Source: Mesostigma viride
Lineage: Eukaryota; Streptophyta; Mesostigmatophyceae; Mesostigmatales; Mesostigmataceae
Assembly: GCA_009746045.1 (NCBI GenBank)
Contig: RPFO01001685.1
Location: 1 to 64,000 of the forward strand
DNA length: 64,000 nt
Reading direction: 5' to 3'
The first letter of the stretch is position 1. Each line of letters begins with the position of its first letter. A program made the translations under genes and the position numbers. The notes below the pieces were generated by a model, which was not told where the DNA came from, searched no databases, and saw only the letters and a program-made list of their open reading frames with translations. Of the stretch, positions 1,680-63,046 are shown one piece after another.

Positions 1680-3712
1680 TCACAGGATGGCGGAAAGCGT
1701 TGTCGCATCAACGACGCGCCAATACCATCACTGCAGGATGACCACACTCTTACGCGGCCTCCGGCGCTTACAGCGCACACGCATTTGTCGCTTACCAACT
1801 CCACTAGCCCACACCCGAAAGCACCCGTCGCGTCATTTATGCCATTTACAACCGCGGGTACCCTCAGCGTAATCTACGTTGGCCAGACGCAACGGATTGC
1901 CTGGACGCGTTTCAGGAACATGTCCGAGCGGCACGCCGCCTTCATATTGGCCGCCCTGCCGCCAACGACGACATCCCCCTACAGCGGCCGCCATGGCCCA
2001 ATACGGGTGGTGGGATTGGCGAGTCGTCCCCTTGGAACATGTCCTCGGCACTTTACCGGCGCCGCTTTTCGCAAGCCGCAGGGCATCGGGAAACGTTTTT
2101 GGAACGAATGTTAACTGCATTTCTGCCCCACGGTTTTTGCATTGAAGGCAAGATTTCAAAGCTCGGTCTCGCCGCCGCCCGCCTTCCCCCGTCCGTCCCC
2201 GCCCTCTTATGTTCATCCGTGCCTGGCGTCTGAAGCACAATCTCCACCCATATCGCCCTATCCCCCAGCGTCACCCCGGCCCCTCCACCTTCCACACCAT
2301 GTGTCCACCGATCCTTCCCTTTACTTCACCAGTCTCCGCTGCTTACGTCACATGTCTCGGCTTATGCAACGCGGCAACTTTCATGCATCCTATCTCGAAG
2401 CCTGCAGCTTGAAGAAGCTTACCAGCTTACACATTGCCGTCGGGTCGTGCTCCCCAGCTGATCTGCAAGTCCCCCGCTCCCATGCCACTAGTCTGCGAGG
2501 CCTTCTCGCACGTATCATTCGGCACCGTGTCAATGGAATGCAGATGCACTGCGTCCGCACCGTTTACTGATCTCACCTTTCATTCATGCTGCGATGGATG
2601 AGCTGTGTTTGCCACACATTCTGCATTTGCCCCGCAAGTGCAGGCTGCGATGCCGCTCCGTGTGCGCAACACTTTCGGCACTCCATCTGCCGCCTGGCAT
2701 TACTCTCCCACCTTGGGACAATGGTTTTCAAGCAACGGGAAGGTCAGCCGCAGTAGAACGCCCACCGAGCTGGCCACCATCTTGGCAGGGGCCCTCCCCT
2801 GCCAACAACAACGGTATTTCAAGTACCTTGATCCCACCTCACAGCACGTCATGACCGCTGACCTCAGCATCCTGCCGAGCCACACGCTTGTAGACTCTTT
2901 GCCAAAGGCACCAAGTTCTCGGCCGTGGGTCCAGCGCACGTTGTGCCAAAGAGGTGAATGCACTGCTCTCCACATCACTGCGCAAATTCTGCAATGCCAT
3001 GTGCACGGACCTACAGCTTGCTCCCCTTGCCATGGAACCGTGGTTTCGCGCCGTCATTCACGAATGCAATGCACGTCTCACCAGGCTTGATACCGTTTCC
3101 AGCAGGTCCACCGCACCACCTGGCTTCAAACACCACAGATAAAGCACTTCTTGACCACTTCAAGCAGGACTTTATATCACACGTGTGTTGACAAGAGTGC
3201 CAACAACTTTGCTTTATTATATGCAAGAAGCACTACCTTGCTACTTTGCAACACGAGTTGGCGTCCAGCCCTACCTATGTTCAGCGTGCACAGTCCACCG
3301 CCAGTATCACGTGCTGCTCATCGGCTTTTCTGCACAGCCAAAAACATTTTGCTCGCGGCATTCCTTAGCGGCAGCGACGCGCACCACCACTACGTTCCCA
3401 TATCTGTATCTCACTCTTAAGCTGCACAAAACTCCTGTTGCTTTGCGCACCATTGCTGCGTCGCCATTCAGCCCCACTGATGCCTCTCTCGAAACTCATC
3501 TGCCATGCTTTGAATGCTCTTCTTCCCCGAAGCCAATGCATTATGGGTGGAGGTGCTGTCGAATGCCGGGTATGAATGCCGCTGGTAGTGGGATCGTCAT
3601 AGACTCAGCCCAAGTACGTCTTACGCCTTGCCGCCCTTAGCCGTTCTAAGACAGCAGCAGAGAAACGTATACCTATGCCCATAGCCACCTATGATTTCAC
3701 ACCACTCTATAT
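1680..3712 (+). pseudogene. Penelope-like ORF, N-terminal part: GIY-YIG endonuclease and first RT motifs
   Basis: GIY-YIG signatures are readable but in shifting frames: VIYAIY (from 1832), VIYVGQT (from 1869), an RF pair near 1909, QEHV just after it, and YGWWDW..VPLEHV (about 2001-2043), matching the order 'IY..., YVGQT, RF..H, YG...W, PLE' of the family. Farther on, LKLHKTP and LRTIAASP (about 3410-3460) match the RT entry motif P-K-HK-P-RPI of Penelope-like elements, and DFTPLY (about 3691-3708) is motif A with its first catalytic Asp. Coding is cut exactly after this motif by element X. No intact long frame remains; the region between 2045 and 3400 is a decayed linker in which I recognise no domain. 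Confidence 0.7.
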
Positions 3713-4199: not shown

Positions 4200-5230
4200 G
4201 ATATATCGGTTTCTTTTACTTTTTATGATACATAGTAGTCGTAAACGTGCAAGGGTGGCCAGAAATCGCCGAATCCAGCGACCATGCTGCACAGCTTGGT
4301 GGCCGAAATGCGCCATTTTCGGCCACCGCCGGGCCAGAGTAACGCCATCCATGCCTGGTAAAGCTTAAGCATCGTTTTCCTATCGATGTTGACATTATAT
4401 ATACGTTCTAGCTTGTGTACACATTCTTTTTGCACTATTCATGCTCTTTCTTGACCTGGCCTGCCCCTTTCTAAAACCCATTCTTAGCTGCTTCCCTCAG
4501 TCAGTTGACCTGCCACAGGGTGATGGTGATAAGTTTTAGAGGCTGTATGGTTTGAATACCTCCATATATGTTTGTATACATTTCCCACACACATATTGCA
4601 TGAGTGTTGAGGCAGTTTGGCTGGTCTCTACTCTGTGGCATCATCAAGCACGTAACTGGTGAGTAAAAGCTTCCCATTGACAGCATGTGCCACCAGGTGT
4701 GCTGGCCATCACCTGGAAAGCTATAGCAGCTTAGGCCTAGTTTATCCTTGCTAGGGCAGGCTGAAATAGGCTCAACACCACTAGTTTGTTGGTGGCTGCC
4801 TCCTAGAATGCATGCCTTGCGTAGGGTGTCCGTACCACGTTACCTACGTGCATGGACAAGGTAGCACCTGCACATAGGTGCCATGTAAGGGCAGTGTGAT
4901 GATGCAGTTATGTTTCCCCATCATTGTGGAAGGGAAATGTATTGTTTGGCATGGTTGGTGGCCATATTAGGGGTCGTATGCCCACCCCTATCCCTTGGTT
5001 GCATTTTACCAACGGTACCCCTATGGGCTGTACTGGGTGTAACTGCTGGTATACCCACCCAAATGATGACCCCAATGGCTCAAACTGTTCAGCAACTAAT
5101 TGTTTATCATCCCTGAAGTGGTAGGTGCCTAGGTCTTATAACATAATTCAAAATGCACATTCTACCAAAAATGAAAACGCGCGTCTTGACCCCCCTGACA
5201 TTGACGGCAGTTAAACATGGCCTACCCTGC
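4200..5230. other. Interior of element X, no gene recognised
   Basis: AT-rich to neutral sequence without a convincing coding frame. Short frames on both strands show no family motif. The segment ends at the duplication ATATATGTG (5231-5239), where the RLE LINE starts. Confidence 0.5.
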
Positions 5231-5239
5231 ATATATGTG

Positions 5240-6925
5240 TCCTGGATTGAGACACGTTTTTTTCTCCATGCACAGCTGAAAAAACCTGCGCCGAGGTGCG
5301 GCACCGCGGCCTACGGTAGTGATTACTGTCTGCGACACGCCCGGGGCTGGCTGCATCTACCTGTCGGCCAATTGTGACCCGTGGGCTAGGCGAATTTGAA
5401 TGCGGCTTTCCCGTTAGTTGTGGCTCCACCGCTCCAGTTTTCTAGGCTGACATGATGAACCGACGGGGGTTCCTGGATTGAGACACGTTTTTTTCTCCAT
5501 GCACAGCTGAAAAAACCTGCGCCGAGGTGCGGCACCGCGGCCTACGGTAGTGATTACTGTCTGCGACACGCCCGGGGCTGGCTGCATCTACCTGTCGGCC
5601 AATTGTGACCCGTGGGCTAGGCGAATTTGAATGCGGCTTTCCCGTTAGTTGTGGCTCCACCGCTCCAGTTTTCTAGGCTGACATGATGAACCGACGGGGG
5701 TTCCTGGATTGAGACACGTTTTTTTCTCCATGCACAGCTGAAAAAACCTGCGCCGAGGTGCGGCACCGCGGCCTACGGTAGTGATTACTGTCTGCGACAC
5801 GCCCGGGGCTGGCTGCATCTACCTGTCGGCCAATTGTGACCCGTGGGCTAGGCGAATTTGAATGCGGCTTTCCCGTTAGTTGTGGCTCCACCGCTCCAGT
5901 TTTCTAGGCTGACATGATGAACCGACGGGGGTTCCTGGATTGAGACACGTTTTTTTCTCCATGCACAGCTGAAAAAACCTGCGCCGAGGTGCGGCACCGC
6001 GGCCTACGGTAGTGATTACTGTCTGCGACACGCCCGGGGCTGGCTGCATCTACCTGTCGGCCAATTGTGACCCGTGGGCTAGGCGAATTTGAATGCGGCT
6101 TTCCCGTTAGTTGTGGCTCCACCGCTCCAGTTTTCTAGGCTGACATGATGAACCGACGGGGGTTCCTGGATTGAGACACGTTTTTTTCTCCATGCACAGC
6201 TGAAAAAACCTGCGCCGAGGTGCGGCACCGCGGCCTACGGTAGTGATTACTGTCTGCGACACGCCCGGGGCTGGCTGCATCTACCTGTCGGCCAATTGTG
6301 ACCCGTGGGCTAGGCGAATTTGAATGCGGCTTTCCCGTTAGTTGTGGCTCCACCGCTCCAGTTTTCTAGGCTGACATGATGAACCGACGGGGGTTCCTGG
6401 ATTGAGACACGTTTTTTTCTCCATGCACAGCTGAAAAAACCTGCGCCGAGGTGCGGCACCGCGGCCTACGTAGTGATTACTGTCTGCGACACGCCCGGGG
6501 CTGGCTGCATCTACCTGTCGGCCAATTGTGACCCGTGGGCTAGGCGAATTTGAATGCGGCTTTCCCGTTAGTTGTGGCTCCACCGCTCCAGTTTTCTAGG
6601 CTGACATGATGAACCGACGGGGGTTCCTGGATTGAGACACGTTTTTTTCTCCATGCACAGCTGAAAAAACCTGCGCCGAGGTGCGGCACCGCGGCCTACG
6701 GTAGTGATTACTGTCTGCGACACGCCCGGGGCTGGCTGCATCTACCTGTCGGCCAATTGTGACCCGTGGGCTAGGCGAATTTGAATGCGGCTTTCCCGTT
6801 AGTTGTGGCTCCACCGCTCCAGTTTTCTAGGCTGACATGATGAACCGACGGGGGTTCCTGGATTGAGACACGTTTTTTTCTCCATGCACAGCTGAAAAAA
6901 CCTGCGCCGAGGTGCGGCACCGCGG
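5240..6925 (+). repeat. 231-bp tandem monomers forming the 5' region of the RLE LINE
   Basis: Seven nearly perfect copies and one truncated copy start at 5240, 5471, 5702, 5933, 6164, 6395, 6625 and 6856. Each begins 'tcctggattgagacacg' and ends 'gaaccgacgggggt'-like sequence. The 6395 copy lacks one base. The last copy stops after 'gcaccgcggcc' and passes into the LINE leader. The first copy begins directly at the target-site duplication, so the array belongs to the mobile element. Its position resembles promoter monomers of mouse L1; that function is inference. Confidence 0.85.
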
Positions 6926-7052
6926 CCGCCCCGCGTTGGGGGGCTGCCGCCCCCCAAACCCCCCGCTTGGGGGGCACGCCCCCCAAACCCCCCGCGTCCG
7001 CATCTCGCTCTCCCCCCGCGCTTCCGGTTCCGTTGTTTTACGCACCTCCCCC

Positions 7053-9902
7053 ATGCCTCCTTCACGACGCCGCACCTCCCGGGCGCGGGATGCGCTGCCT
7101 AGTGGCGCCCCTGCGCCGCGTCGGTCCTTACGCATCGCGGCGCACCTGCAGGAGATGGGCGACCTGGACGACGGCGGTCGTGGCGCCCCTGTGCCACTCT
7201 CGCTTGTGTGCGAGGTCTGCCACAGTGGTGAGGATGCCCCCCGTCTCCTTGTGTGTGATTCGTGCCAATGCGGCTGGCACACGCGCTGCTTGGTCCCGCC
7301 CCTCTTCCGGCTGCCTCCCCCGGGTCCTTGGGCGTGCCCTCATTGCGTGGCCCCGCCTCGGCCGTCCCTAGGCTCCCGACGCGCGGCCGTGTCGACCCCG
7401 GGATCCCATTCGGCCCGCGCCCCCTCCCGCAGCCCCTCGCTGGACCCTCTCCTGGGCCTTGCGGACCTCGTGGAGGGTTCCACACCGTGCTCCCGCTCTC
7501 CCCGCGCCGTCACGTCCGGCCCCTCCGCGGGGTCCCCTGGCCCTGCCCCGCCTAGCTCTGGGGATCCACCTCCGGCCAGCACGGCGGTGGCCACTGACCT
7601 GCGTCCTCCTGTGCTTGAGGGGTCCCTGGCGGCTCTCCTCCCTGAGGCTGTGGGACACCCTGCGGCGACTCCTGTGGTGGGCCCCTGGTCGGCCGCGCTT
7701 GGGTCCCACGACTTCTCCGTTTGGCCCCCCACCAACATTGCGGGCGTCAGCGCGCTCCGGCACGCCACGTTCTCTTGGCTGTATTGCCCCTTGCTGTTGG
7801 ACGCTGTCGGCTTGCACGCGGCGTTTCCTACGCTCCCACGGCCCCCTGAATTTAGTGCCCTTGTGGTTCGTGTCCGGCACATGCTGCAGGCAGCCTCCCC
7901 CCCTGTCCTTGCCTCCACGCTTTGGGGGTTTGTCCTCGAGGACTACCATGCCGGCGGCCGCCTGCCTTGGCACCTGCCCGCGGTGCGCCAAGAATGGCTC
8001 CTGAATCTGGACGCTCAAGTGGCGCAGGCGGTGGTGCTCTTTGCTACAGGGCTTGCCGTGCAGGCCCAGCAGGCCGCCCGTGCGACATATCTCGCTGGGG
8101 GGGCCACCGACCACGCCTTGCTCGATCGCCCTCAGCTGCACACGTTTCTTGCCTCTGCCGGGCCCGGCTCGGCCGGCCTTGTTGCGCAGGCCCACGGGCG
8201 CTTGACTACGGCGGTCACCCCAGCGCAAGCCGCCCGCCTGCGCGTTGACTTCGGGGCTCCTGTCACCGTGCACGCCGGCGACCTGGTTCTGTACGATGCG
8301 GGGGGGGGGCGTGTTCTTGAGCTGAGCGCGGGTGCGGCCGTGCCCGCCATCTTGCACGATGTGCTCGAGCTTGCGGGCATCCCCCATGTCTGGCACCCTG
8401 CTGGTCCGCGCCGCCGTCTTCTCTCCGCCGATGAGATCGCCCGACTGCCGAGCTGGGAGCTGGGGTGGGACGCGGCGCCCGCCCACTACGGGCCGGCCCA
8501 CTTGGTGGATGTCACTGCCAGCGGCCCCTCCTGCCCCATCTGCTTGGACCTGCCTCGCCCTGGTGACGGTCTCTGCCGCCTCCCTGCTTGCGGCCACGTC
8601 TTCCATCAAGCTTGCATCGCCACGAGCTTGCACGCGACCTCCGCCACCTGCCCCCTTTGCCGGGCCGCGGTCCTTTCCCCCTTGCCTCCTGGCGTTCTCC
8701 CGCTGGGGCCCTCGCCCGTGTCCGTGCGCCGCCAGTCCCACGCGCCTGCCCCGACACCTGCCTCCCCTGTGCGTGGTCGTGGGTCGCGCGCCGGCTTGGC
8801 TGCCTCCTCCAGCGCCCCCCTCCCGGCCGTGGGGGCCGTCCCCGCGCCGGTCTTGTCCTCGGCTGCCACGAGCCCTGCTGACCGCCCGGCGGCCGGCCCC
8901 GCCCTGGGTTCCGCTGCAGCTGTAGTTCCTCTGGCTGAGGGTGCTCCCGACCCCTCCCCCTCTCGACCCGGGCCGGCCCAACCGGGTGGGCGCACCCCCT
9001 CAGATGGCTTCCATTATTGCCAAGTCGATGGTCCCCTTGGTGACCCGTGTGGCGCGCGCCTGCCCAACCGGAATTCGTTGCTGGTGCACATTCGGGCTTC
9101 CCACCCCCACATCACGGAGGCCGCCATGCGCGCCATGGACTGCTACCGCTGCCCGGCAGCCCATTGCCAGCGGATTTTTTCGATCCACGGGCGGTACCAG
9201 CATGAGCGGCAGTGCCGCCGCCAAACCCCCCAGAACGGCCTGCCCGGCGGCCCGGCGGCCGCACCGGCCTCCCGGTCCGGGGCGGCCCCTCGGTCGGCCC
9301 CTGCCCCTCCACCGGCATCGCAGGGTACGAGCGATCCGGGGGACCTCTCGGCAGGCTGGGCATTCCTGGCCACGCTCCCTTTTGCCGCCTGTGCGCGCAA
9401 CCCTTGCATGACGCTCCCGGACGTCCCTCACCGCGCCCGGAGCTTGTTTACGCGCTGCGCCCTGCTTTCCCTGGCCCGGATGCATAGTCACCCTCTCGAC
9501 GAACTCGGCCACAAGCTGTTTCTCGTCACCCCCCGGCTCCTCTTAGCGCCGTTGGAGCGGGGCGTGCGTGGCGTACAGGGTGCGGTCATCGCTCGCTGCC
9601 GGCGGTTCCTCCTCGGGGATTGGGAAGGGCTGTGGGCGCTGCAGCCTCCGGCCTCCACCCGGGTGTCGGGGGCCGCCTCCTTTGCCCGGGTGGAAGCTGA
9701 CGTCATGCGGTTGGTGAAGGTAGGTGAATTGAGCCGGGCCATGCAAAAGCTTGAACTGACCGCGTTGGCTCCCTCCACTCCCCCGACCCTGCAGGCTTTG
9801 CGCGACCTTCACCCCGACGAACCGGCCTTTGCGGTGCCCGCCCCGGCCACCCCCCGCCCCCGCCTATTGTCCTGGACCTGGACATCTTCACGGCTGTGCT
9901 GA
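7053..9902 (+). CDS. RLE LINE ORF, N-terminal part: PHD finger, RING-H2 finger, two C2H2 fingers
   Basis: The chosen ATG at 7053 starts MPPSRRRTS, just after the leader; a frame continuing upstream into the last monomer has no better ATG. The frame covers 949 residues. PHD finger, residues ~53-98: Cys-x2-Cys (CEVC), CDSC, WHTRC, CPHC, the Cys4-His-Cys3 pattern of a histone-tail reader. RING-H2, ~494-542: CPICLD, ACGHVFH, CPLCR, typical of E3 ligases. Two C2H2 units at ~654-690 (CQVD..HIRASH) and ~697-725 (CPAAHC..H..QC), placed as in R2-like proteins that bind DNA with N-terminal fingers. The frame ends at 9900-9902 because of a one-base deletion near 9852-9857; the protein should continue into the RT. 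Reading chromatin or ubiquitinating host factors is inference. Confidence 0.8.
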   Translation: MPPSRRRTSRARDALPSGAPAPRRSLRIAAHLQEMGDLDDGGRGAPVPLSLVCEVCHSGEDAPRLLVCDSCQCGWHTRCLVPPLFRLPPPGPWACPHCVAPPRPSLGSRRAAVSTPGSHSARAPSRSPSLDPLLGLADLVEGSTPCSRSPRAVTSGPSAGSPGPAPPSSGDPPPASTAVATDLRPPVLEGSLAALLPEAVGHPAATPVVGPWSAALGSHDFSVWPPTNIAGVSALRHATFSWLYCPLLLDAVGLHAAFPTLPRPPEFSALVVRVRHMLQAASPPVLASTLWGFVLEDYHAGGRLPWHLPAVRQEWLLNLDAQVAQAVVLFATGLAVQAQQAARATYLAGGATDHALLDRPQLHTFLASAGPGSAGLVAQAHGRLTTAVTPAQAARLRVDFGAPVTVHAGDLVLYDAGGGRVLELSAGAAVPAILHDVLELAGIPHVWHPAGPRRRLLSADEIARLPSWELGWDAAPAHYGPAHLVDVTASGPSCPICLDLPRPGDGLCRLPACGHVFHQACIATSLHATSATCPLCRAAVLSPLPPGVLPLGPSPVSVRRQSHAPAPTPASPVRGRGSRAGLAASSSAPLPAVGAVPAPVLSSAATSPADRPAAGPALGSAAAVVPLAEGAPDPSPSRPGPAQPGGRTPSDGFHYCQVDGPLGDPCGARLPNRNSLLVHIRASHPHITEAAMRAMDCYRCPAAHCQRIFSIHGRYQHERQCRRQTPQNGLPGGPAAAPASRSGAAPRSAPAPPPASQGTSDPGDLSAGWAFLATLPFAACARNPCMTLPDVPHRARSLFTRCALLSLARMHSHPLDELGHKLFLVTPRLLLAPLERGVRGVQGAVIARCRRFLLGDWEGLWALQPPASTRVSGAASFARVEADVMRLVKVGELSRAMQKLELTALAPSTPPTLQALRDLHPDEPAFAVPAPATPRPRLLSWTWTSSRLC

Positions 9903-12259
9903 AGGATCTGCCGAACGCCTCCTCCACCGGCCCCTCAGGCTGGCGCTACGAGCACCTCTCCGTGATGGCGGGCCATGGCGGGGCGACCGCACTCTTTGAG
10001 GCTGCCGCCGACTTGGCCGCGGGGTCCCTGGCCCCCGCGGCGCGCCCTTGGCTGGCTGGGGCACGCCTCATTGCCCTCCTGAAAGACGACGTCCCCCCGC
10101 CTGCTGGCCGCGTTCGTCCCATTGCTTGCGGCGAGGTCCTACGCAAGCTGGTGAGTAAGGTCATTTGTCGCCAAAAGGCCCCCGAGTTTCGCGCCTACTT
10201 CTGCCCCAACCGGAGTGATACTGAGGAGTCCGTCGCGGCCCAGCTTGGCGTCGCCACCAAAGGGGGCAGCGACATCATCGTGCACACAGTTCAGGCCTAC
10301 CTCGAGACGCATCCGACCCATGTGGCGCTGAAGGTGGATTGCCACAATGCGTTCAATGCTGTCACCAAGGCTAGCATCTTTGAGGCCGTCGGCGAGGCGT
10401 TCCCTGACCTTCTTGCGTGGACAGCAGCCTGCTACGGCGAACCCACTCAACTCTCCTTCCTCATGGAGGATGGGACGTTCGCCGACATCGCTTCCCGCAC
10501 GGGAACCCAGCAAGGTGACCCCCTCGGCCCCTTTTACCTGTCTGCCCCGCTGCACAAGGCTCTCCAAGGTGTCCACGCTGCGCACCCGGATGTCGTGCTC
10601 CTCGCCTATATGGACGATATCCATGCCCTTGGCCCGGCCGACGCTGTGGTTGCCGCCCTGGCTGCCCTTGAAGTGGCCATGGCGGCCATCAACCTTCGGC
10701 TCACCCTCCCCAAGTGTGCAGTCTTTTCGCCCCAGGGGGACTGCTCTGGCTTCCCCGCGGCTATCCCGGGGGCATTGGCGCGGGCGCGTGGTTTCTCGTG
10801 CCTGGGCGTCCCTGTGGGTGACCCTGACTACGTCGAAGAGGAGCTCCGGGCCACCGTGGAACAGCGCACCCATGTCCTCGAGACTTGGGCGCGCCTCAAG
10901 GACCCCCAGACCAAAGGGCTCCTCCTGTGGTTTTGCGCCCACCCGCGGGTGGTTCACTGGCTCCGTGGCGCTCCCCCCCACTTGGTGCGGCTTGCCGCGG
11001 AAGGCCATGACGAGCGCATTCAGGCCGCCTTGCAGGTGCTCCTCCCCGGCCCTAGCCTGCCAGCTCACTCCATGCGCTTGGCCACCCTCCCCTGCCGCAT
11101 GGGCGGGTGTGGGCTCACCCGCGCCGCCCGCCTCGCCCCCGCCGCCTTCCTTGGCTCTGTTGCTCAGGCCTGGGCGGAGATCCGCCGGTTGGTCCCCAGC
11201 GCCGTCAGCGCCATTCCCGACTTGGTCACCCCATCCCCCTTCCCCTTTGTGCAGGCTGTGCAGGATTCTTACCTCGGGATCCAGCAGGCTTGCGACCTCG
11301 TCCGCCCCGCTCAGGCCGTCCACCGTCGCCTGCCCCGGGGCACGCCCGGCGTGTCCACTGTCGTCAGTCCTAGTGTCTTCCCTGCCTGCGTTCATGAAAA
11401 ACAACAAAAGACCTACGCGGGTATACTACACTGTGCCGACTGGATGGGTCTGCATGCGAGCTTGAACGATCAGGGGAAGGCTTGGCTTCACTCCGTTTCC
11501 CTTGAGGGGAGCGTGGGGTCCGCATTCCTGCGCGCCCTCCCCATGAGCCCTTTGTTCACACTGGTTCCGGCCCTTTACGCCATCGCTCTCCGCCACCAGC
11601 TCTTTGCCCCGCAACCTCTCATCACGGCGGGTGCGTCCTGCGGCAGCTGCGGGCTTGCTCTGGATACTACTGGGACGCACTACATCGCGTGCATGGGTGG
11701 CCAGCAGAACCAGAACTGGTTCCTCTATCTCCATACCGCTCTCCTCCGGGTGGTGTGTGCCATGGTTCGGTCGGTCTTTCCCCACTCCACCATCAAGTGC
11801 GAGGACGCGGATGGGGCCGCCCTCTACTCACCCAACCACCGCCCCGACATTACCGTGCTTGACTACGACGGGCAGGGTTGCCACCTGCTCATCGATGTCT
11901 CCGTGGCTCGGCCGCTTTCCGGTCGCCACATCCTCCGGGCGGCTGTGGATGCCGGCGCTGCTGCCGCTGTGGCTGAGCGCGACAAGTTTGCCTCCTACGG
12001 CAATGTGGGGCCCCACCGGGTCATCCCCTTTGTCCTTGAGGAGTTCGGGGCCATGGGCCCCAAGACAGCGGAGTTTTTCCACGAGTGCTGCCAGCGCCGT
12101 GAAGACCGCCTCGACCTCGAGGGTCAGACCGCCCCGTGGTCGGCCCGCACGTGGTCCTCGTATTGGCGGCAGCGTCTGTCACTCGCCCTCACTCGCACCG
12201 TGGCTGATGTGTTATTCCGCCGCACCCGGGCCGACTTTGTCGCGACCCATGCGGTCTAG
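9863..12259 (+). CDS. RLE LINE ORF, C-terminal part: reverse transcriptase, CCHC, restriction-like endonuclease
   Basis: This frame is open from about 9863 (IVLDLDIF) with no ATG of its own at the start, consistent with fusion to the upstream ORF. RT motifs: LIALLKDD and RPIACGEVLRKL (10069-10155), motif A ALKVDCHNAF (~10326), motif B GTQQGDPLGP (~10501), motif C YMDD (10607-10618). After the thumb come a CCHC knuckle CGSCG..HYIAC (~11638-11694) and RPDITV...LLIDVSV (~11842-11910), the PD-x(n)-D core of a restriction-like endonuclease. The order RT-CCHC-RLE defines early-branching LINEs. The stop is at 12257-12259. With the one missing C restored the ORF would be about 1735 residues. All catalytic residues I can identify are present, so this copy is young. 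Confidence 0.85.
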   Translation, partial: PIVLDLDIFTAVLKDLPNASSTGPSGWRYEHLSVMAGHGGATALFEAAADLAAGSLAPAARPWLAGARLIALLKDDVPPPAGRVRPIACGEVLRKLVSKVICRQKAPEFRAYFCPNRSDTEESVAAQLGVATKGGSDIIVHTVQAYLETHPTHVALKVDCHNAFNAVTKASIFEAVGEAFPDLLAWTAACYGEPTQLSFLMEDGTFADIASRTGTQQGDPLGPFYLSAPLHKALQGVHAAHPDVVLLAYMDDIHALGPADAVVAALAALEVAMAAINLRLTLPKCAVFSPQGDCSGFPAAIPGALARARGFSCLGVPVGDPDYVEEELRATVEQRTHVLETWARLKDPQTKGLLLWFCAHPRVVHWLRGAPPHLVRLAAEGHDERIQAALQVLLPGPSLPAHSMRLATLPCRMGGCGLTRAARLAPAAFLGSVAQAWAEIRRLVPSAVSAIPDLVTPSPFPFVQAVQDSYLGIQQACDLVRPAQAVHRRLPRGTPGVSTVVSPSVFPACVHEKQQKTYAGILHCADWMGLHASLNDQGKAWLHSVSLEGSVGSAFLRALPMSPLFTLVPALYAIALRHQLFAPQPLITAGASCGSCGLALDTTGTHYIACMGGQQNQNWFLYLHTALLRVVCAMVRSVFPHSTIKCEDADGAALYSPNHRPDITVLDYDGQGCHLLIDVSVARPLSGRHILRAAVDAGAAAAVAERDKFASYGNVGPHRVIPFVLEEFGAMGPKTAEFFHECCQRREDRLDLEGQTAPWSARTWSSYWRQRLSLALTRTVADVLFRRTRADFVATHAV

Positions 12260-12472
12260 ATCCCTTCCAGGCCTGCATGGTGGGCCGGCAGCGCTGTTGC
12301 TGCGTGTAGTTTTGTGATGTATAGTTAGTTGTACAGGTCTTGTGCCGCTGGCGTGATCCTTGGATGTCTGTGTCAGATTACTATTAATTTCTTCAGGGTT
12401 ATTCTCCCAGTTATCGGGTTTTTCCTTATGTTGCATGCCTATCTCACCTCCGTAATCTATCATTCTCAATGA
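12260..12472 (+). other. 3' UTR of the RLE LINE
   Basis: The same sequence ('ggtgggccggcagcgctgttg', 'gtgatgtatagttagttg', 'ggcgtgatccttggatg', 'gcatgccta', 'cctccgtaat', 'ctcaatg') appears on the minus strand at 62625-63037, where its distal part is tandemly repeated. It ends at the target-site duplication without poly(A). Confidence 0.75.
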
Positions 12473-12638
12473 ATATATGTGAGGTTGCACAGATATACCA
12501 ACCCGAAGGGCAACTCATGGACATGCTTGGCCCCCAAGGACAGCCATTGGATATGGGTAGGTTGGATGGCATCTGGTTTGCAAAATTGTGAAGATCCAGC
12601 CGATTTATCGGCAGGATCTCAGACCATTTAGGGGATAT

Positions 12639-13567
12639 ACCACACTAGATTTGCACGATTTGAAAGCTCGTTTAGATAGCCTCCTTACTCGTCTGTATGC
12701 ACGTACGTAGGCCTCACGGGCGCAACCACCTGCACGTGCGTGTTTCTCAGACCAAGCCCACGGCAACGTGGCTCTCAGGGATCGCGGCAGGTGCTATCGT
12801 GCGGGATGGTTATAATTATATTATCACGAAGGCTGACCTTATTCATTGGATCTCTTATCTTGTTGATAACACCTTCATCTGTTTTGCGGGCAATGTATAC
12901 CAACAAGCTATCGGCATCCCTATGGGCACTAACTGTGCCGGGCTCCTTGCAAACCTCTATCTATACACTTATGAGCTTGCATTCATGGAGAATCTCATTG
13001 CCTCAAACGATGATGTTCTCATCAGGCGTTTTATCCATACATGTCGATACATTGATGATGTCATCGCTTTCGACAACCCTGATTTCGCAACCCATTTGTA
13101 TATCACCGCTGACCAGTCTGCCTGGCATCTACCCGCAAGCGTCCCTCACATTAAAGCTCACGTCGGAGGATACTCATTGCAATTACCTCGATCTTAACAT
13201 TACCCATAACAAGAAGGGCTGGCGTACGGCTGTCTATGATAAGCGCAAGGATCCTAAATACCAGCAAATTCCTTTTATTCGTTACCCCGATATTCACAGT
13301 CTCCTTTCCCACACAGCAAAATATGGTGTTGTTCTTTCTCAGTTACATCGTTTTTCCCGTCTTTGTTCTTATCGTGTTGATTTCATCACGACTCTTGTTG
13401 AACTCTTGCAGCGTTTATTGGTCAAAGACTATGACCGAGCCATTATGCTCCGTCAAGTCCGATGTTTTTTGCAACGTCACCCACATCTGTTCGGTGCTGC
13501 CCCTTGGCACAAGCTCTACAAACAGGTCGTAGACCGGCTGGATCACATAGTATCTCCGCACATCTGA
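12639..13567 (+). pseudogene. Penelope-like ORF, C-terminal part: reverse transcriptase core and thumb
   Basis: This continues motif A from 3708: joining 3712 to 12639 (one ATAT copy) gives LYIPH followed, after a one-base shift, by DLHDLKARL, the usual sequence after motif A. Then come IGIPMGTNCA (motif B, about 12911-12940) and RYIDDV (motif C with the catalytic Asp pair, about 13045-13062). Another frame carries the thumb: YLDLNITHN, KYQQIPFIRYPD and SQLHRFSRLC, ending with a stop at 13565-13567. At least two frameshifts and a stop show inactivation. Telomerase and group II RTs were considered, but GIPMG with RYIDD and the upstream GIY-YIG favour a Penelope-like element. Confidence 0.78.
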
Positions 13568-15040: not shown

Positions 15041-18000
15041 TTAATGGTGGATGCCAACGCGACCCTGCCCGTGGGCCGCGGGGGCTGCATGTATGCGCCG
15101 CGCCTAACCGATAGCAATGCCAACACCCCCCTACTTGAGCAACTGCTAACTGAGGGGGACTTGACTGCTGCCAATACGCTGTTTGCTAAACCGCCTGATG
15201 CAGTAGTGACCTTTGTGGGCCCCATGCGCAGGGCGGCTGGCTCGATGCTCCCTCGGCGGCGATGTGTATGCTTGGACTACATACTTGTGCGCAAGTGCTG
15301 GCGCTCTTCCGTCATCGATGCCCGTACGCTGACCACCCCCAGTGTCGCATCGGATCATCGCATGGTCACCGCAACCTTGCACCTACGTCTTCAGGCCCCT
15401 GCGCGCCGCCGCCCCCGGCCCCGCCCTGACTGGACCTGCTTGCGCCCCGGCCGTCCGTGGGCGCAGGGAAAAGTGGTCAGCGGATGAGATACGCCGCGAT
15501 GCAATCAGGTCTGCCTTTGTGGACGCGCAACCTTTGATGTACCTGGACGCAGATCGTGGTGTAGATCTCACGCCACCCTACGAACTGTTCATGCGATCGG
15601 TGGAGCACTGGAGCTTGGCTCTAAGCTTCTCCCCGAGCAACCCCGCGCCCGACCAGCCCCGCTCTACCTGCGCGACGCCCGGGTGGTTGCCGCCCGGCTG
15701 GCGCTAGCGCAGGCCCGCCGCCGCGGGGAGGGCCTGTACCCGTACCAGGAACGGCTTACTCAAGCATATACTGCCGCACATGCGGAGGAGGTGGAGACAC
15801 TTGCCGCCGAAATCAATCGCCACACGGCCGCCAACCAGCACAAGGCGGCCTGGCGCTCTCTCGACCGTCTCACCGGACGCCGGGAAACGCAACGGGCTGA
15901 CATCCCAGGCACCCCCAGTGAACGCCTTGAGATTTGGTTCAGCTCCCAGGCCAAACTATCAGCTAGGGGCCCCTGGCCCGCCCCCCCCGCTTGACCCCGC
16001 TGCAGCTGCACGCCCTGCGGCCAGCCGAGGCGGCCCCATCGAGCCCCCACAGGCGCCCACCAGCGAGACGGACTACCTGGTCCCACCGCTCTCCGGCCCC
16101 CTGGTGGACGGCCCCCACGACGAGTGGACTCCCCAGGAATGGGCTGCTGCCATCTCCACCCTCCGCAATGATGCTGCCATGGGAGTGGACAATATTTCAC
16201 CGGAGGTGGTTAAGATGCCTGAGCTTGAGCCCTTCCTCCGGGGTGTTTGCAACCGGATTCTACGAGATGGCCTCCCCCCGCGGACGTATTGGAAGACCGC
16301 TGTCCGGGTCATGCTCTACAAGGGTGCCCAAGGGGTCCGCCGCGGATACCGGCAACTACCGCGGCGTATGCCTCCAAAGCTGCGTGCTGAAAGTCTTCAT
16401 GCGTCTCCTGCTGAACCGCATGCGCGCCAGCCTCGATCCCCACCTAGGTGAGTCCCAGATGGGCTTCCGTGTTGGTCGCAATTGTGTTATGGTCACTATT
16501 ACCGCGCGCCGCCTGATCGAGGAAGTGGGCCGCCTGGCCCCCGGCCTCTTGCCATTGCTATTGATCTTCGTGGATTACACCAAGGCATTCGATACGGTTA
16601 TATGGGACGCCCTGTGGGTGGTCGATCATTCACCTGTTCCGTGTCCCATCGTACATCGTTGAGATCATCCGCCAGTTCTATGAAGGGTCCCAAGCCCAGG
16701 TCCGTACCGCCGACGGCGTCACTCCGGCATTCCCCCTGCACACCGGGGTGTGGCAGGGCTGTGTGCTCTCCCCATATCTATTCATCATTATGGTGGACTA
16801 TATTATGCGGCGTGCACAAGCCCGCTTCGCCCGGGTGGAGGGGCGCCCGCCGGGGATCGAGATCACGGAGTACGCCATGCAGCTACGGCGGGGTTGACCC
16901 ACCCTACCGCCTGAGCGATCTGATCTACGCTGATGACACGACACTCGTGGAAACCCCAGAGTCAGCCCAACTGTGGCTAGACAGCTTATCACTGGAAGCG
17001 CGGGCGGTGGGGCTTATGATCAGCAAGAAAACGGAGGTCATGGCCATCGGCTTCCCTGCTGGGATTGCCCCACCCACCCTCCTCTTGCTGGACGGCAGCC
17101 CCGTCCCCCCGGCGACTCGCTTCAAGCTCCTCGGCAGCTGGCTTCCCTCCACGGCCGACGACATCAACACCCGCATTGGCCAGGCCTGGGCGGCCCTCCG
17201 CCGCCTCGACAGGTTCTGGACCTGTCGCTACCTGAGTGATCGAGCGACGCAAGCGCATTCTGTTCAAGGCCCTTGTCCTCAGCATCCTCCTTTATGGCTG
17301 CGAGGCGTGGACCCTGGACCAGGCGCTGAGCCAGCAGCTTGACGGCACCGTCACTCGAATGCTCCGTCATATCCTCGGCGTCCGCTACCAAGAACGCCGC
17401 ACCCGGGCCGAGCTCGATCATCTACTGCGAGCTCCCTCTTGTCACCCATACCATCCGACACCGCCGCCTCCTCTTTGCCGGCCATCTTGCCCGCACAGAC
17501 CAGGTGAATACCGATGTGGGCCCTGCGCTAGCTGCCGGGGGGCTTAAGACGGGCCAACCAGGTAGACACCTCCTCCTATGGCAGGGTCCCCTTGTCCCAT
17601 CGCAACCCACTGGCAAACTTGCGCGCGCCGGGCACCGGCGCGGCGCGACCCGGACCTATGTGACACAACTGCTTGAAGATGCAGGGCTTCTGGGACTATC
17701 CGTACTCCGCGCCCGCATGATTGACAAGGAGAAATGGGCTGCCATCTGCGATAAGCACCTTCCCGAGGGGTATGCTCCTGTTTTCTCCCCACGGGCCCCG
17801 CGGCCCGTTGCTAGCCAGGGTAGAAGTCCGCAGGTGGAGGTTATTGGTCCTGAGGATAGCCGCTACACTACCGCCTCGTCTGCCATTACAGTAGAGGACA
17901 GCTCGGATGAGGATTACATCCCCATCTAGTGCTTAACGGTTGGGGGATGATGCAGACGATATTTGTTTAAACTTCTGTGTAATTATTTTTCTAATGAGAT

Positions 18001-30834: not shown

Positions 30835-33800
30835 ATGGACCAAAAAGGCGAGAAAGCAAGCATGGCGATTTATGAAACTGTTGCGGAGATGAGATCCTGG
30901 TCTAGAAAGCAAAAAATTGCGGGCAAGCGCGTAGCGTTTGTGCCGACCATGGGCTGCTTGCACGAGGGGCATCTCTCTTTGGTGCAAAAAGCCAAGTCTC
31001 TGGCGGACGTGGTGGTTGTGTCTATCTACGTCAACCCTGGGCAGTTCGCTCCCGGGGAGGACTTCGATGCATACCCTCGACAAAATGAATCGGACCTAAA
31101 GAAGTTGACGGTGCGTTGAGTTTTCTGAACGCGCTCTCACCGCTTCTGCGGCTCTTACCCCTCCCAGCATTGTGCCGAGAACTGAGGAGCACGCTGAACC
31201 GCAAACTGCACACTAAGAATCCCCTAAAATGCGCACATGCAAATGGCGCGTGCATTGTGCCCATCTGATTCGGAGTAACTGCCAATGTTCGACCTTCGTG
31301 CGTGCTTCATACGCGATAGTTGCTTGATGTAGGAACGTACAACCGTGCTCGCGTACAGAAGGAAGTGAAGCCTGTGTCCGCCTGAACTAAGCCATGAGCA
31401 TGCTGGCAAACTTCGGCATTCGATAATTAATTCCATGATTAACAAATTTTGCCCGTGTGCATGCCACGTCGCGGCTGTTCCAGGCAAGCCTGTTTTGCTG
31501 CCCACCCTCGCAATTTTCCCAATGTGCTGACATTGCAGTCATTCTGCGGCATGTTTGGCTTGCCAGGATAGTTAACGTAAATGGCTCTGGGCTTCACGTT
31601 ACCGGGTTCGTTGCAGGTGGAGGGCGTGGACGCCGTGTTCATGCCCCACGACCTGTACATCCGAGACCCCTCCCAAGGGCACAGCATCATCGGCAAGGAG
31701 TCAGCCCCTGTGGCCCACGTGGCGGGCCAGGTGGCGGGCCACGAGACCTGGATCGAGGTCCACCGGCTGCAGCGCGAACTGTGCGGCCGCAGCCGGCCCA
31801 TCTTCTTCCGAGGCGTGGCCACGATCGTCGCCAAATTGTTCAACATTGTGGAGCCCGACGTGGCTATTTTTGGGAAGAAGGACTACCAGCAGCTGTGCGT
31901 CCTCAAGCGCATGGTGCGTGGGGTGCGGGACTTGGTGGTTGTGGTCCTACAGGTGGGCAAAGCAACCCCTCAAGAGGAAGGGTCGCTCTCGCAAAGCCAA
32001 GTCCTCGAGTGTGACCCCAATCGGGGCCAGCTCCCTGTGGCCTGGTCCTTGGCTTGGTCTCTGGGGATGAGCAGTGCTGTGGTGGGCACTTGGGGCGGAT
32101 GCCACTAATGTTGTAGGGGCACTGGGGTGCGCTGGGTACTTGAAGCCTCAACCCCTGGTAGTCGTTGTTGGCATGGATGGCAATGAGCTTGCTGTGTGCA
32201 CCTGCTGCCACTTCATTGTACCCAACATTACTTCTATACTGCCTTGGGAGGGTGCTGACGAGTTTGGACTACTACATTGCACTCTGCGCTTTCCAAGGGA
32301 GGAGTCGTCTTTTTTTGTTTAGTTAAGAGTCTTTCAAAAGGCATGTTCCCATCCCATGGGCCTTTCCTATGCTGGCATTAACTTGATGCTTCTTCTCTCT
32401 GGCCCCGCCCCCCCCCCCCCCTCCCTTCTCCCCCATTTTTCATATTTTGTCCCTGGCCCGTTCCAACAGGTCCGCGACCTCGACTTTGCGATCGAGGTGG
32501 TGGGTGGCGAGCTGATGCGAGAGGCGGACGGTCTGGCGATGAGCAGCAGGAACTTGCTGCTGACCCCCGAACACCGCCAGGAGGTGGGTGGTAACAGCCT
32601 TCTGATGTGGCATGAATGCACAACTTTTGAAGTTCCTAGGATACCTAGTTTGATGAGTTAATTAATTAAATGCACGTAGATTGCGTCACGTGGGTAGCAA
32701 TAAAGGAACCTCCCACCCCTATACACAACAACAAAGAGGGAGGGCGCCCTAGCTTCCCTAACTGCCTCGAGTGGGCAGGCCACTGAGGACTCTCTCTGCA
32801 TCATGGTGCAGGCCCAACTTTGGTTGCAAGACAACAGGAAGTAGCATTTGAAAGCGTAGCGGATGCAGTAACGCTGCCCATCGATCGTCCAGAGGCCACA
32901 GATAGGCTTGGAACACATGGAGAGCTGCCGGTTCGGGAGAATATGAAGGCCTCTCCCGGAGCTAGCCTGAGGGGTTCTAGGGGTAAACCCAGGGTTCACC
33001 CACAACCCCCAACTAGTTTGATAGCAGTACGTGAACAGTGGCAATACTATTTCCATACAATAAAGGGTGAAGTAAGCCCAAGTCTTGTTTTGCCCACACA
33101 TGGGCCACCAAGGTGTGTTGCGTCCTCCCAGTGTTATGCTTCCTGGGACTCCCGACTAAGTGTGATTGTCACTTGACGTAGCAGAAAGTTTTGTTGCCAT
33201 TTCCGACATGGCTTCTTGCTGGTGTCCGTCCCTGTTGTTTGCGGTAGTGGCATAATCCTTTTCCGGCAGTAATGTCTGCGCCGCGGGCTGTTAGCTCCTG
33301 CCGACCGCTGCACCGTGCTGCGATATCTTGTTTTTGTATTTGCAAGTGTGCAGCTTTTCTTGGACATTTTGATTTTGGAAGCATGGCCTGGCTGACGTAA
33401 TGACTGCCATGACCTGTTGATGGTATCTCCATTGAGGGTGATTCCTCGTGCTAAATGGGGTATTTATTTCCATCGAGGGTGATACCTCGTGTTAAATGGC
33501 GGGGAAGCGATCACAGCAGGGTTGCTTTAAAACTGGACACTCCTGGCCGCTAGGAGCACCTGCCCTGATCACGCGAGGTTGTTTTCAGGTAAACCGTCTA
33601 GGTCTCGATGAACGTTAGCCAGCCATAATTTTTAATGTTCACAGCTACACATATCCACCTCCATTCATTTACATCATCCTAAACGACTCGACAAATGCGG
33701 ATAAGATAACAGCAGGCTCGAGCTACCATGGTCCGGACTCTTCCCGATATCTGGCCTGCGCTGGTTGTCTCTTTGATAATCCTTTCTTGCTTTTTCGTGG

Positions 33801-37621: not shown

Positions 37622-38070
37622 TTCACCTTTGCGGCGTGCCAAATCAGAATATACGCTAGCTTGGCTGATCTCGATAGTACCGGCTACGCCCCCTTCTAAT
37701 AAAGAAGGTTCCAGCCGTGTTCAGCCCGGCGTCTCACGTTGCGAGACTGAACAAGTCTCGCGTGCAGACACGTGTGTAGTACTCCTACACACACGTACAG
37801 ATCTCGAATGATTTATCTAGTAGTACCTAATCCGAAAGGCTTGCATCACTCCCCGGAAAGGAGAACTTTTGCGGATCGATGACTGTAGGTGTAAGCTGGC
37901 GATGCCCTAGGATCCGGAGACGTCCGTCCTATAATAGTCAGCGAAAGTTGGTGCGAGAGGTCCCCAGTTCGATTCCGGTCGGATTCATTTGCAGATCGCG
38001 TTTTCCGCGTTTTCCGCGGACCGGCACTGAACGCAAATGGTTTTCACCTTTGCGGCGTGCCAAATCAGAA
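37622..38070 (+). mobile_element. tRNA-like structured short retroelement, copy 1
   Basis: Flanked by the 9-bp duplication CACACAGGT (37613-37621, 38071-38079). Contains perfect or near-perfect hairpins: GCGAGACT..AGTCTCGC (~37739-37759), a GTGTGTAG/CTACACAC hairpin (~37770-37795), and CCGCG..CGCGG near 38007-38020. A 77-nt segment from 'ggatccgg' near 37910 to 'ccggtcggattca' has acceptor-like pairing GGATCCG with CGGATTC and a B-box-like AGTTCGATTCC. The first ~28 bp repeat the last ~28 bp. No ORF. Copy 2 is at 63047-63448. Confidence 0.65.
37908..37986 (+). ncRNA. tRNA-like segment of the short retroelement
   Basis: The acceptor-like stem pairs seven bases (one G-U), followed by a single A. 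The T-arm-like loop TTCGATT is flanked by CCAG and CCGG (one mismatch). The D and anticodon arms do not fold convincingly, so this is not called a functional tRNA; a tRNA-derived SINE head is the better reading. Confidence 0.4.
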
Positions 38071-38481
38071 CACACAGGTAGTAGCCTAGTCCTTAAGTAC
38101 AGCCATGCATGCTACGTCTTGGCTATGCCCAGATTATACTTGCCCACGCTCCGCCTTGTTATGACATGCTCACATGGGTCTTATATTGCATCCACAGATA
38201 CTGCCGCCTGCCGGATCGTTTAGCGTGTCCGATTGCAGCTGTGGCATGCCTTTGGCATGAAGGAGAAAGGGGGTCTCTGCTCTTTCTCCTGTTGTGCACA
38301 CATGCACAGGGATTAAAAGCACAAGTTTCGGTGCTACGTGACTCCCCAACGGGAGCACGAGTTTAAAATTAATTTTAAATAATTTTAATCCAGGGACGTG
38401 AGCACACACATGTGGCGTTCACATGCATGTGTACACGTGAGGAGCAAATACTAGAGTATCGTACATGCATATGTCATTTGA

Positions 38482-41779: not shown

Positions 41780-44700
41780 CTACTCATCAAAACGCCTCCT
41801 CCTCTTGGGGGGAGGTGGCTTGCCCACAGGGTCTGGCGTGTGAGCGCCTTGACAAGGGTCTGGCGTGTGAGGCGCCGGCCTTGACAATCTGCTGCCACCA
41901 CGTCTTGTTCTGCATGGCAGTCCAAAGAAGGGAGAGAGAGGGGATGCCGTGTTCCGAAACTGCATGCCGGGCTGGGACCACTATAGGTCGTCCAGCAACA
42001 TCTGGATGTAGTTCGTGACAGGTTTCCCTACCCTTTTGGGAATGCCCTTGGGGCCAGGCCAGGTCAGAATGTGCCGCCCTGGCTGGCCAAGCCGCTGGGG
42101 CCTGCCAGACCAAGGGCGGTGTCGACCTGGCTGCATGGTACGAGCAAGGTGTCCTACAAATGCTATCCTACGACCTACGCTGCCTAATTTCGTCCCAAAT
42201 ACGAGGCATACCATGATACAAAGACTCTAATGACGGGCGCTGGGAAAACCCTACGTTAAGAACCTGTCGCAGCATATCCTGTAAACCGTGCCGTTGAGCC
42301 TGGCTGCCAGTGTGGGTGTGAGTGTCCACGCCTCGGCGCCATACGTGAGCACCGTGAGGACGAGGACCTTGAAGAGCATGCGCTTGCGGTGCTCGCCCAG
42401 GCCCTTCGAGCGCCAGTAGGTGTTGAGCGAACAGAGCCTGGCCCAGCTAGGCCAGGCCGATCGATGCGGGTGTCCACATCGTCTGCAGTGCATGTCAGGG
42501 AGCCAACTCCCCAACAGTTTGAAGCGATCGCGGAACGGGACCTCTGTCCCGTCGAGCAGGCGCGGCATGCAGCGGTGGTGTACTGCATGGAGGCCCCAAT
42601 CACCATCGCCTCAGTTTTGACATGAATCTCCAACCCCACCGCCCTCGCCTCCAGGCCCAGACTGTCACTGAGGATCAGGCCCAGTCAGGTCTGAATGTGC
42701 TCGGGGCGCGCGATGAGGGTGATGTCATCCGCATAAATCAGGTCGGCCAGGCGGTATAGCCAGGTTTAACCCCGCCATGCGCGCTCTCCTGTCACGACCT
42801 ACATCCAGATGTTGCTGGGCGACCTAGTGGTCCCAGCCCAGTTTGAGCACCGCATCCACTCTCTCTCCCGTCTAATTTGGACTGCCATATGCAGGACAAG
42901 ACGCGGTGGAAGAAGATTGTGAAGGCGCGCACACGCCCAACCCTGTGGGCAAGCCCCCTCCCCCCAAGCGGAGGCGGCGTTTTGATCGGAGTAGTGTAGT
43001 TAGGATTTTCTAGATAGCTTTGAGTTCTAACTCAAAGGATAGTTCGATCACGCGGCTTCCTCCACCCCATCCATCATGGAATATGTGCTACATGAGCTCC
43101 CCACGGAGGCATGTTATAATTTAATGCGCGCTCTCGTTAAGGATGTCCGGCAAGCCGGGCTCAATTAAACCCAGTAAAGCGCGCACGTGCCCGGCGCATA
43201 TGACCTGGTCCACGACAATAATGATCAGGTATGGGGATCGACAGGACACAACCTTGCCACACCCCGTGGTGAAGGGGGAATGGTGGGGTCCGGTGCCTTC
43301 CGCATGCAGTCCGCACTACTGCCTGTGAGCCCTCATACAGTCGGCGAATATGGCAGCAATAAACGCTGGTGGTACCCAATCCAGAGCTAGGATGGCCCGA
43401 AAGAGCCTCCCAGAGGACCGTGTCGAAGGCCTTGTTGATATATAGTCAACAAAAATGAAGACCAGCGGCAAACTGTCAGGGCAACGGCGACGCACCTCCT
43501 CCATCAACCGGCGCGCGACAAACACAGCCATGACAGTGTTACGACCACGACGGAAACCCATCTGAGACTCAGCCAGGTGTGGGTCCAGCGCGGCGCGGAG
43601 CCTGTGCAGCATCATGCGCATGAAGACCTTCAGCGCGGCGCTCCGTGGAGGCAGACACCCCGGTAGTTACCGGGGTCAGCAGCAGAGCCCTTCTTGTACA
43701 GCATGACGCGGATGGCCGTCTGCCACTCAGCAGGCGGATCGAGGCTCGTCAGAAAGCAGGACACAGTTGCAGAACGCCAGCAGAAGATCCCTAACCGCCG
43801 GGTCAGGGGTCTTAGCTCAGCAGAAAGCTGGTGGTCGGCACCGACCGCCGCGTCGTACCGCAGGCGAGCAAGGGCGCCGTCCAATTCCTTCAAAGTGAAG
43901 GGGTGGACGACGTCGTCGGTGACAAGGCAGCCCTCCTGCAAGGCGGGGACTTGGTAGTCCGCGGCCGAGGCCGGAGGGAGGCGCTGGCGGCGGCGGGGGT
44001 CCGGCAACCCCGAGGCGGGCGGCCGTCTCGGGGTGAAGCGGCGGAGGGGGCGCGCGAGCCCCACCGGTCAAGGAAAACTTGTGGGCCAACCAGCGGTCAA
44101 GGCTGACCGGCGCCGTGCCGTCCCCCGTGTGCTCCACCGGGGTGCGCTGCCGCCGGCCGCCGAGCCGGTCGAGTTGGTACCACATGTCCTTGCCCTGGTT
44201 GCGAGCCTGGCAGGCCTTGGCATCCGCGATGCACTGGGCCGCCTCCGCGTCCTGAGCGTGCTCGTAGGCCTCCACGAGGGCGGCCTTGAGCACTGGTTTC
44301 TGCAGCGGGTCCCGGTTACGCTTGAGGTGGTGCCGGGCGGCCAAGACCTTGGGGTCCTGGCGGTAGAACGGGCCGGGGCGGCGGCGGGGCATGACCGGCA
44401 GGTGCCGGGCCGCCAGCAACGGGGCACGGGCCGCAAAGCCCGCAAGAATGGCGGCATTGGGGGCACCTGTGTCCAGCTCGTCGACGTCTGCCCGGGCGTC
44501 CAGGGCCGACAGGTACTCCAGTCGGCACCGGTTCCGCGCGTGCTCGGCGTCCGTCCAGTCCTCAGGATCTCCCCGGACCGGGCGTAGAGCAGACCAGTCA
44601 GGGCGGACCACTGGGGCGCGGCGCGCGGGGACGTGGAACCGAAGCCGAATGGTCGCGCGCACCAACCGGTGGTCAGAGCACACCATGGGCGTGTCAAACA

Positions 44701-44890
44701 CTCGGGCGTCCAGAACCGAGGTGCACCTGGGCTGCCGTACCACCACGTAGTCCAAACAGGCCTGACGGCCGTTAGGGCTGGCCACGAAAAGTGACCAAGT
44801 CCTGTGAGGGACGTTGGAAGTGGCAGTTGACAGCAACCATCCCGCTATCCCGCAAAAAGGCAGAAAACAGAGAGTGGATGCGGTGTTCAA
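41780..44890 (-). pseudogene. APE-type LINE ORF2 of family A: endonuclease C-terminus and reverse transcriptase
   Basis: Minus strand. Endonuclease end: ACLDYVVVRQPRC and VCSDHRLVRATI (~44760-44640). A Pro/Arg-rich linker with CQARNQGKDMWYQLDRLGGRR follows. RT: GSAADPGNYRGVCL (~43685-43640), SQMGFRRGRNTVMAVFVARRL (~43565-43500), motif A FIFVDYI (~43450, next codons frameshifted), motif B GVWQGCVLS (~43270); after the insert, LADLIYADDITLI (~42750, motif C). Then LTYGAEAWTLTP (~42330), RRIAFVGHLARTMQ (~42170) and the DPVGKPPPP end (~41820). At least five frameshifts. It encodes the part missing from the copy at 38482-39490. Confidence 0.78.
42789..43123 (+). mobile_element. 5'-truncated family A LINE fragment nested in the minus-strand family A LINE
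   Basis: Flanked by the 12-bp duplication ATGCGCGCTCTC (42777-42788, 43124-43135). It carries the last coding segment (FEHRIHSLSR, TRWKKIVKA) and the 3' UTR with stem-loop, matching 39180-39475. Confidence 0.85.
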
Positions 44891-62945: not shown

Positions 62946-63046
62946 ACGGACATCCAAGGATCACGCCAGCTGCACAAGGTACAACTAACTACATCACAAA
63001 ACTACGACTCGCTGCAACAGCGCTGCCGGCCCACCATATATGCAGG

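Follow-up and report, generated by a model that had tools for sequence, protein, structure and literature searches.

We analysed a 64,000-nucleotide stretch of Mesostigma viride DNA (contig RPFO01001685.1, positions 1 to 64,000 of the forward strand, assembly GCA_009746045.1; hereafter the window), which contains a long interspersed nuclear element (LINE) of the restriction-like endonuclease (RLE) class whose predicted protein carries a PHD finger and a RING-H2 finger. The LINE insertion spans positions 5240–12472. A perfect 9-bp direct repeat, ATATATGTG, was found immediately outside these limits, with the 5′ copy of this target-site duplication at 5231–5239 and the 3′ copy at 12473–12481. 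The repeat abuts both ends exactly, in agreement with the element coordinates of the original prediction, which was made from the sequence alone, and it lies outside the 5′ repeat array and the coding part alike. The element begins with an array of 231-bp monomers on the plus strand (5240–6927; 7.3 copies, 99% matching, Tandem Repeats Finder), which likely serve as its promoter. The stop codon and 3′ untranslated end occupy 12257–12472 (plus strand). The same 3′ end is found in partial copies at 62–64 kb, two of which backed it with last matching element positions of 7233 and 7232, while the alignment of a third 3′ fragment there reaches element position 7226 only. The interpretation of 5240–12472 as a full-length RLE LINE insertion that integrated as one unit is thus well supported. 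Because the stretch encoding the PHD and RING fingers is located inside the duplication-flanked unit, it moved together with the LINE; the flanking repeat shows only that it travelled within this one insertion. The order of domains in the protein is PHD, RING-H2, two zinc fingers, reverse transcriptase (RT), CCHC knuckle and RLE.

The N-terminal coding part consists of an open reading frame (ORF) of 949 aa from an ATG at 7053 (7053–9899, plus strand), in a frame that is open from 6912; residues of the PHD and RING fingers are counted from this ATG. The original prediction had placed a PHD finger at about residues 53–98 and a RING-H2 finger at about 494–542, and had named a failure of profile searches to recover them as a possible refutation. 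Both were recovered. Residues 53–98 (7209–7346, plus strand) matched Pfam PF00628 with an E-value of 1.2e-6 and 28.9 bits against a curated cut-off of 24, and residues 494–536 (8532–8660, plus strand) matched zf-RING_2 with an E-value of 2.7e-9 and 37.6 bits against a cut-off of 27.3. All eight metal ligands are kept in the PHD (Cys4-His-Cys3), and likewise in the RING (C3H2C3). When the N-terminal part was searched against the PDB, the top match of the PHD was the KDM5B PHD (E 9.5e-12) and that of the RING was Arkadia (E 3.9e-7), among the best 60 of 92 sequences; four of the top five PHD matches in this set were KDM5-type chains and the other was PHF12. KDM5 PHDs read histone H3. The stop-free run of 996 aa was longer than those of all 300 order-2 Markov simulations of the GC-rich stretch (mean 388, maximum 735), and a 537-aa antisense ORF over the same DNA gave no Pfam match at E up to 0.01. 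In addition, GC content at third codon positions (GC3) is alike in the N-terminal part (73–77%, from the ATG at 7053) and the RT-RLE part (75–78%). At the level of sequence, the profile matches, the ligands and the two controls confirmed the PHD and the RING-H2 as real domains of the predicted LINE protein.

Details of the two fingers bear on what they may do. The PHD has a Gly at what we take to be the aromatic-cage position of K4me3 readers, and a Trp one residue further. The RING keeps CPIC, CPLC and an Arg immediately after its last Cys, presumably the usual place of the linchpin residue. By eye, it does not have the Trp that is common ahead of the final Cys pair and that we take to be an E2 contact, E2 being the ubiquitin-conjugating enzyme. 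Between the PHD and the RING lies a stretch of about 290 aa (7653–8519, plus strand) that had no Pfam match at E up to 5. A single-sequence AlphaFold2 model of the PHD-to-RING part was helical in this stretch and, with a mean pLDDT (predicted local distance difference test) of 38.0, was too poor to be used.

Two C2H2 fingers had been predicted ahead of the RT. Ligands assigned by eye bear out the first as a C2H2 finger with a wide first spacing (C-x9-C-x12-H-x4-H, 9018–9104, plus strand), while the second turned out to be a C2HC finger (C-x4-C-x11-H-x3-C, 9141–9215, plus strand). No Pfam match was obtained at E up to 5 for the region that contains the pair (8703–9899). The second finger falls within a weak alignment to L025 (E 0.006), one of the RT relatives described below, and a pre-RT segment at 9723–9824 (plus strand) was common to relatives in weak BLASTP matches (L025, E 0.006–0.007; L034 and L061, E 0.04–0.15), these E-values coming from a comparison of just 11 sequences. 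The N-terminal reading frame is supported because the second finger and the pre-RT segment align, if weakly, with relatives.

The RT, linker, CCHC knuckle and RLE are encoded by 800 codons at 9857–12256 (plus strand; ORF, Pfam and BLASTN), in a frame that differs from that of the N-terminal part. The RT matched Pfam RVT_1 (E 6.6e-13) and contains the catalytic motifs LKVDCHNAFN, GTQQGDPLGP and YMDD at 10328–10618 (plus strand; Pfam, alignment and sequence). The CCHC knuckle, C-x2-C-x9-H-x3-C, lies at 11639–11692 (plus strand; R2 profile match and sequence), and the RLE core, RPD...D...K, at 11840–12001 (plus strand; alignment, profile and sequence). To compare these regions, we used an alignment of seven rows, A1, containing the window protein and relatives L025, L034, L056, L061, L079 and L092; a further relative, L047, was excluded for its runs of N. 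D680 and K710, which we take to be at the positions of RLE catalytic residues, are invariant in all seven rows. The first PD of the RLE is absent from L056, L079 and L092, and the RPD core of the window copy was seen by eye. A profile built from A1 ranked R2 retrotransposon proteins first in the PDB (E 7.9e-24), followed by LINE-1 (8.2e-17), and gave a second R2 match, colinear but weak (i-Evalue 0.1), across the CCHC knuckle and RLE. This detection required the profile, because the RT-RLE protein searched by itself had no PDB match at E up to 0.01, and its weaker matches (E 0.34 or worse) were all retroviral-type RTs, with no R2 among them. Neither coding part matched an APE (apurinic/apyrimidinic) endonuclease in Pfam at E up to 1. 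Together, the R2-led profile result, the weak CCHC-RLE stretch, RVT_1 and the 9-bp duplication support the predicted RLE-class assignment of the LINE; we leave its clade unnamed. An RT tree of eight rows was weakly supported (68/84) around the window row. With its long branches and without named clades, it was not used for classification, and a single-sequence AlphaFold2 model of the RT-RLE part (mean pLDDT 38.3) was not used either.

Contrary to the expectation of one continuous ORF, the N-terminal and RT-RLE parts of this copy lie in different frames. The PHD, the RING and the finger pair share one frame that ends in a stop at 9902, the RT and RLE are in another that ends at 12259, and the switch occurs at about 9.85 kb, just upstream of the RT. 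Partial copies of the element are arranged head to tail at 62200–63971 on the minus strand, comprising element positions 6538–7233, two 3′ fragments, and positions 4586–4958 (BLASTN, 79–89% identity). The 5′-truncated copy at 62.2–62.6 kb, with frames judged by eye, is in register across the junction that corresponds to about 9.85 kb, and because of this the LINE family probably has a single ORF. The frame break of the window copy would then be either a mutation or a sequencing error. The copy at 62.2–62.6 kb is itself disrupted by short insertions further along.

The fragments at 62–64 kb have further features. Relative to the main copy, 62202–62611 together with 63451–63971 contain 14 short insertions (1–15 bp), 2 deletions and 26 substitutions in 855 aligned bases, and some of the short insertions resemble local duplications by eye. 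This pattern could come from an unusual spectrum of mutations or from the assembly. A repeat of about 400 bp is present at 63050–63457 and at 37667–38078, the two copies being 89% identical to each other. The copy at 63050–63457 sits in the 3′ end of a LINE copy and has a tRNA-like B-box by eye; the repeat may be a short interspersed element (SINE).

Five 5′ junctions are readable in the window, those of the main element and of the four partial copies at 62–64 kb. ATAT is present within 16 bp upstream of the junction in five of five, against 3.8% of window 16-mers, and ATATAT in four of five, against 0.5%, in a comparison whose motif was chosen post hoc and in which three junctions are not independent because they are nested in one array. 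The pattern suggests a TATATA-like target. Microsatellite targets are known for RLE LINEs from passages of PMC4640811 and PMC3636483. The nested array at 62–64 kb would be explained because duplication would rebuild a TATATA-like target, which could be hit again. Within the window, no rRNA and no U2 snRNA gene matched Rfam at gathering score, so that insertion into 28S rDNA or a U2 gene was not encountered.

To gather relatives, a degenerate QQGDPLGP pattern was used, which gave 93 loci (2 viral, 91 genome). Seven of these, L025, L034, L047, L056, L061, L079 and L092, encode RT relatives (tblastn, E up to 0.01), with best E-values from 3e-18 to 2e-47. They lie on contigs of 3.4–7.1 kb in bacterial bins of the genome_contigs collection and are most likely eukaryotic contamination of those bins. 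Single-protein scans of viral_contigs and genome_contigs gave no relatives, nor did an alignment scan of viral_contigs. In L047, L056 and L092 a contig end cuts off the upstream part; the ORFs of L025, L061 and L079 start inside their contigs. By eye, the N-terminal region of L079 (613–1500) shows an OTU-like pattern, NGNC...NHY, which found no support in Pfam or the PDB and is not claimed.

The LINE resembles R2 and R2-like elements (R2Bm, R2Tg) in having RT, CCHC knuckle and RLE in the same order, and R2 also has upstream zinc fingers according to passages of PMC5678591. Unlike R2, it has a PHD and a RING upstream, a 231-bp monomer array and no rDNA target in the window, and its RT motif reads GTQQGDPLGP where that of R2Tg reads GVKQGDPMSP. 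In nematode NeSL and in Utopia-1_TSP, both RLE LINEs, an N-terminal Ulp1-like protease is described in passages of PMC4640811. RLE LINEs can therefore gain an N-terminal domain related to ubiquitin-like systems; there it is a protease rather than a RING-type finger with a PHD, and, unlike in the case of Utopia, no U2 gene was found in the window. PHD fingers have been described in CR1/L2 LINE proteins; some subgroups carry the PHD N-terminally in their only ORF and have a repetitive 5′ region (passages of PMC4120745). For CR1-like LINEs the description dates back to 2003, judging from a title in the references of PMC3747384. The PHD is common to both, whereas CR1/L2 elements belong to the APE class and the window LINE to the RLE class. 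The word RING did not occur in the main text of PMC4120745, and the word PHD did not occur in the main texts of PMC5678591, PMC3636483 and PMC5348765 from the RLE-LINE literature; the 'ring finger' of PMC5678591 is, in its context, part of the RT hand and not a zinc finger. Among DNA transposons, Ginger1, Mutator and Helitron elements carry OTU, Ulp1 or PHD domains, one family having both Ulp1 and PHD, and a role of the ubiquitin system in transposition was proposed from the captured proteases (passages of PMC2836005). They differ from the window LINE in being DNA transposons, in having proteases and not a RING, and in having no RT.

The UHRF1 PHD is among the PDB matches of the LINE's PHD. 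Host chromatin factors of the UHRF1 type likewise unite a PHD and a RING in a single polypeptide; they have additional domains and lack an RT. We recognised no RLE LINE with a PHD or RING in the open-licence PMC literature, among the matches listed, and this absence is weak because coverage was limited to that literature, with Repbase outside its scope. The suggestion that a PHD plus a RING is not standard for the RLE class agrees with these results, as the layout was met neither in the RLE-LINE passages searched nor in the six relatives scanned, as far as they were covered. The combination of PHD, RING and RLE is an uncommon domain set, and the presence of a PHD in LINEs is itself already known.

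Target-primed reverse transcription is the likely mode of movement of the LINE, and a TATATA-like site is likely chosen and nicked through the finger pair and the RLE. The PHD would dock the ribonucleoprotein (RNP) on a histone H3 tail, probably one unmodified at K4, a preference that we propose because most of the nearest solved PHDs are those of KDM5. The RING would recruit an E2 and ubiquitinate a chromatin or host protein nearby, or the element's own protein, which would clear the insertion site or govern repair. An RLE LINE with a PHD chromatin tether and local RING ubiquitin activity is the best single reading of the locus, and we hold it with moderate confidence; histone binding by the PHD and ubiquitin ligation by the RING are what we infer from the resemblance of the two fingers to known families. 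A more specific version, a UHRF1-like module, appears quite unlikely. Here the PHD would read the H3 tail, and at the nick the RING would ubiquitinate either a histone or a host factor bound to chromatin. Targeting would then operate on two levels, the state of the chromatin and the DNA sequence, with the fingers and the RLE acting at TATATA-like sites, and the element would write a mark where it inserted.

Several observations weigh against the tether-and-ligase reading. The copy at 5240–12472 has a frame break, and the PHD-RING region was seen in a single copy only, with no second copy within the window. A PHD or RING was found in none of six relatives (Pfam, E up to 1; L034 was unscanned, L047 was covered only at 1–2004, and the upstream open frames at L025 1–600 and L061 3963–6761, minus strand, lay outside the scan). 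Since the relatives are only 22–31% identical to the window protein over A1, their missing fingers say little about the LINE's own family. As to the target site, three of the five junctions follow a single copy in a nested head-to-tail series. The RING, finally, lacks by eye the putative E2-contacting Trp.

It is possible, though somewhat unlikely, that the PHD and RING are real family domains that act as protein-protein or RNA-protein scaffolds, in multimerisation or RNP assembly, and not as a histone reader and an E3 ligase. The KDM5 PHDs that make up most of the nearest solved structures argue against this through their H3 reading, as do CPIC, CPLC and the presumed linchpin Arg of the RING. 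On the other hand, PHD and RING folds both include non-histone, non-ligase members, and the missing Trp fits a RING of this kind. The authors of PMC4120745 (2014) knew of no work on the function of a PHD in a LINE, which is also compatible with a scaffold.

Unlikely, too, is a one-off capture, in which part of a host PHD/RING gene became trapped downstream of the 5′ monomers and upstream of the finger-RT part, in this copy or its immediate source, and is useless to the element. Such an event would account for the single PHD-RING copy in the window and for the lack of this region in all six scanned relatives. Against it stand the 949 codons that are open in a frame reaching the second finger and the pre-RT segment weakly shared with relatives, the agreement with the RT part in GC3, and the intact zinc ligands of both PHD and RING. 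Chance matches or mistranslation in GC-rich DNA, where alternative frames are also long owing to GC content, were rejected as extremely improbable on the basis of the antisense control and the Markov simulations, and because two independent families each passed their curated cut-off with all ligands present.

If the PHD and RING work as they look, in line with a chromatin tether and local ubiquitin activity, they would offer a LINE an uncommon means of directing or protecting its insertion. A reader-type and a ligase-type finger beside an RLE would make the ideas of LINE PHD function and of ubiquitin in transposition testable in a single protein. R2 proteins are already in use for gene insertion, as described in passages of PMC11331408.

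The window contains other features outside the LINE. Fragments on either side of it (3185–3637 and 12697–13567, plus strand) looked by eye like a Penelope-like RT, perhaps one element split by the insertion, a resemblance that Pfam did not support: 3185–3637 (plus strand) matched BIRC6 (6.2e-6) just below its cut-off, and 12740–13564 had no significant Pfam match. LINE-like fragments are present at 15044–17929 and 43817–44890, with RVT_1 at 15991–16659 (6.9e-8); 16482–17339 and 43820–44890 had no Pfam match and are LINE-like by eye only. Exons of a ubiquitin-activating enzyme E1 extend over 49005–59339 (plus strand), with long tracts full of simple repeats between them; by eye, this gene resembles those of the green lineage. 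Pfam matches to E1_4HB, UBA_E1_SCCH and E1_UFD lie between 53589 and 59336, and the N-terminal piece at 49005 was recognised by eye only, with no Pfam match. An exon of pantoate-beta-alanine ligase was found at 31581–32105 (plus strand; E 1.4e-26).

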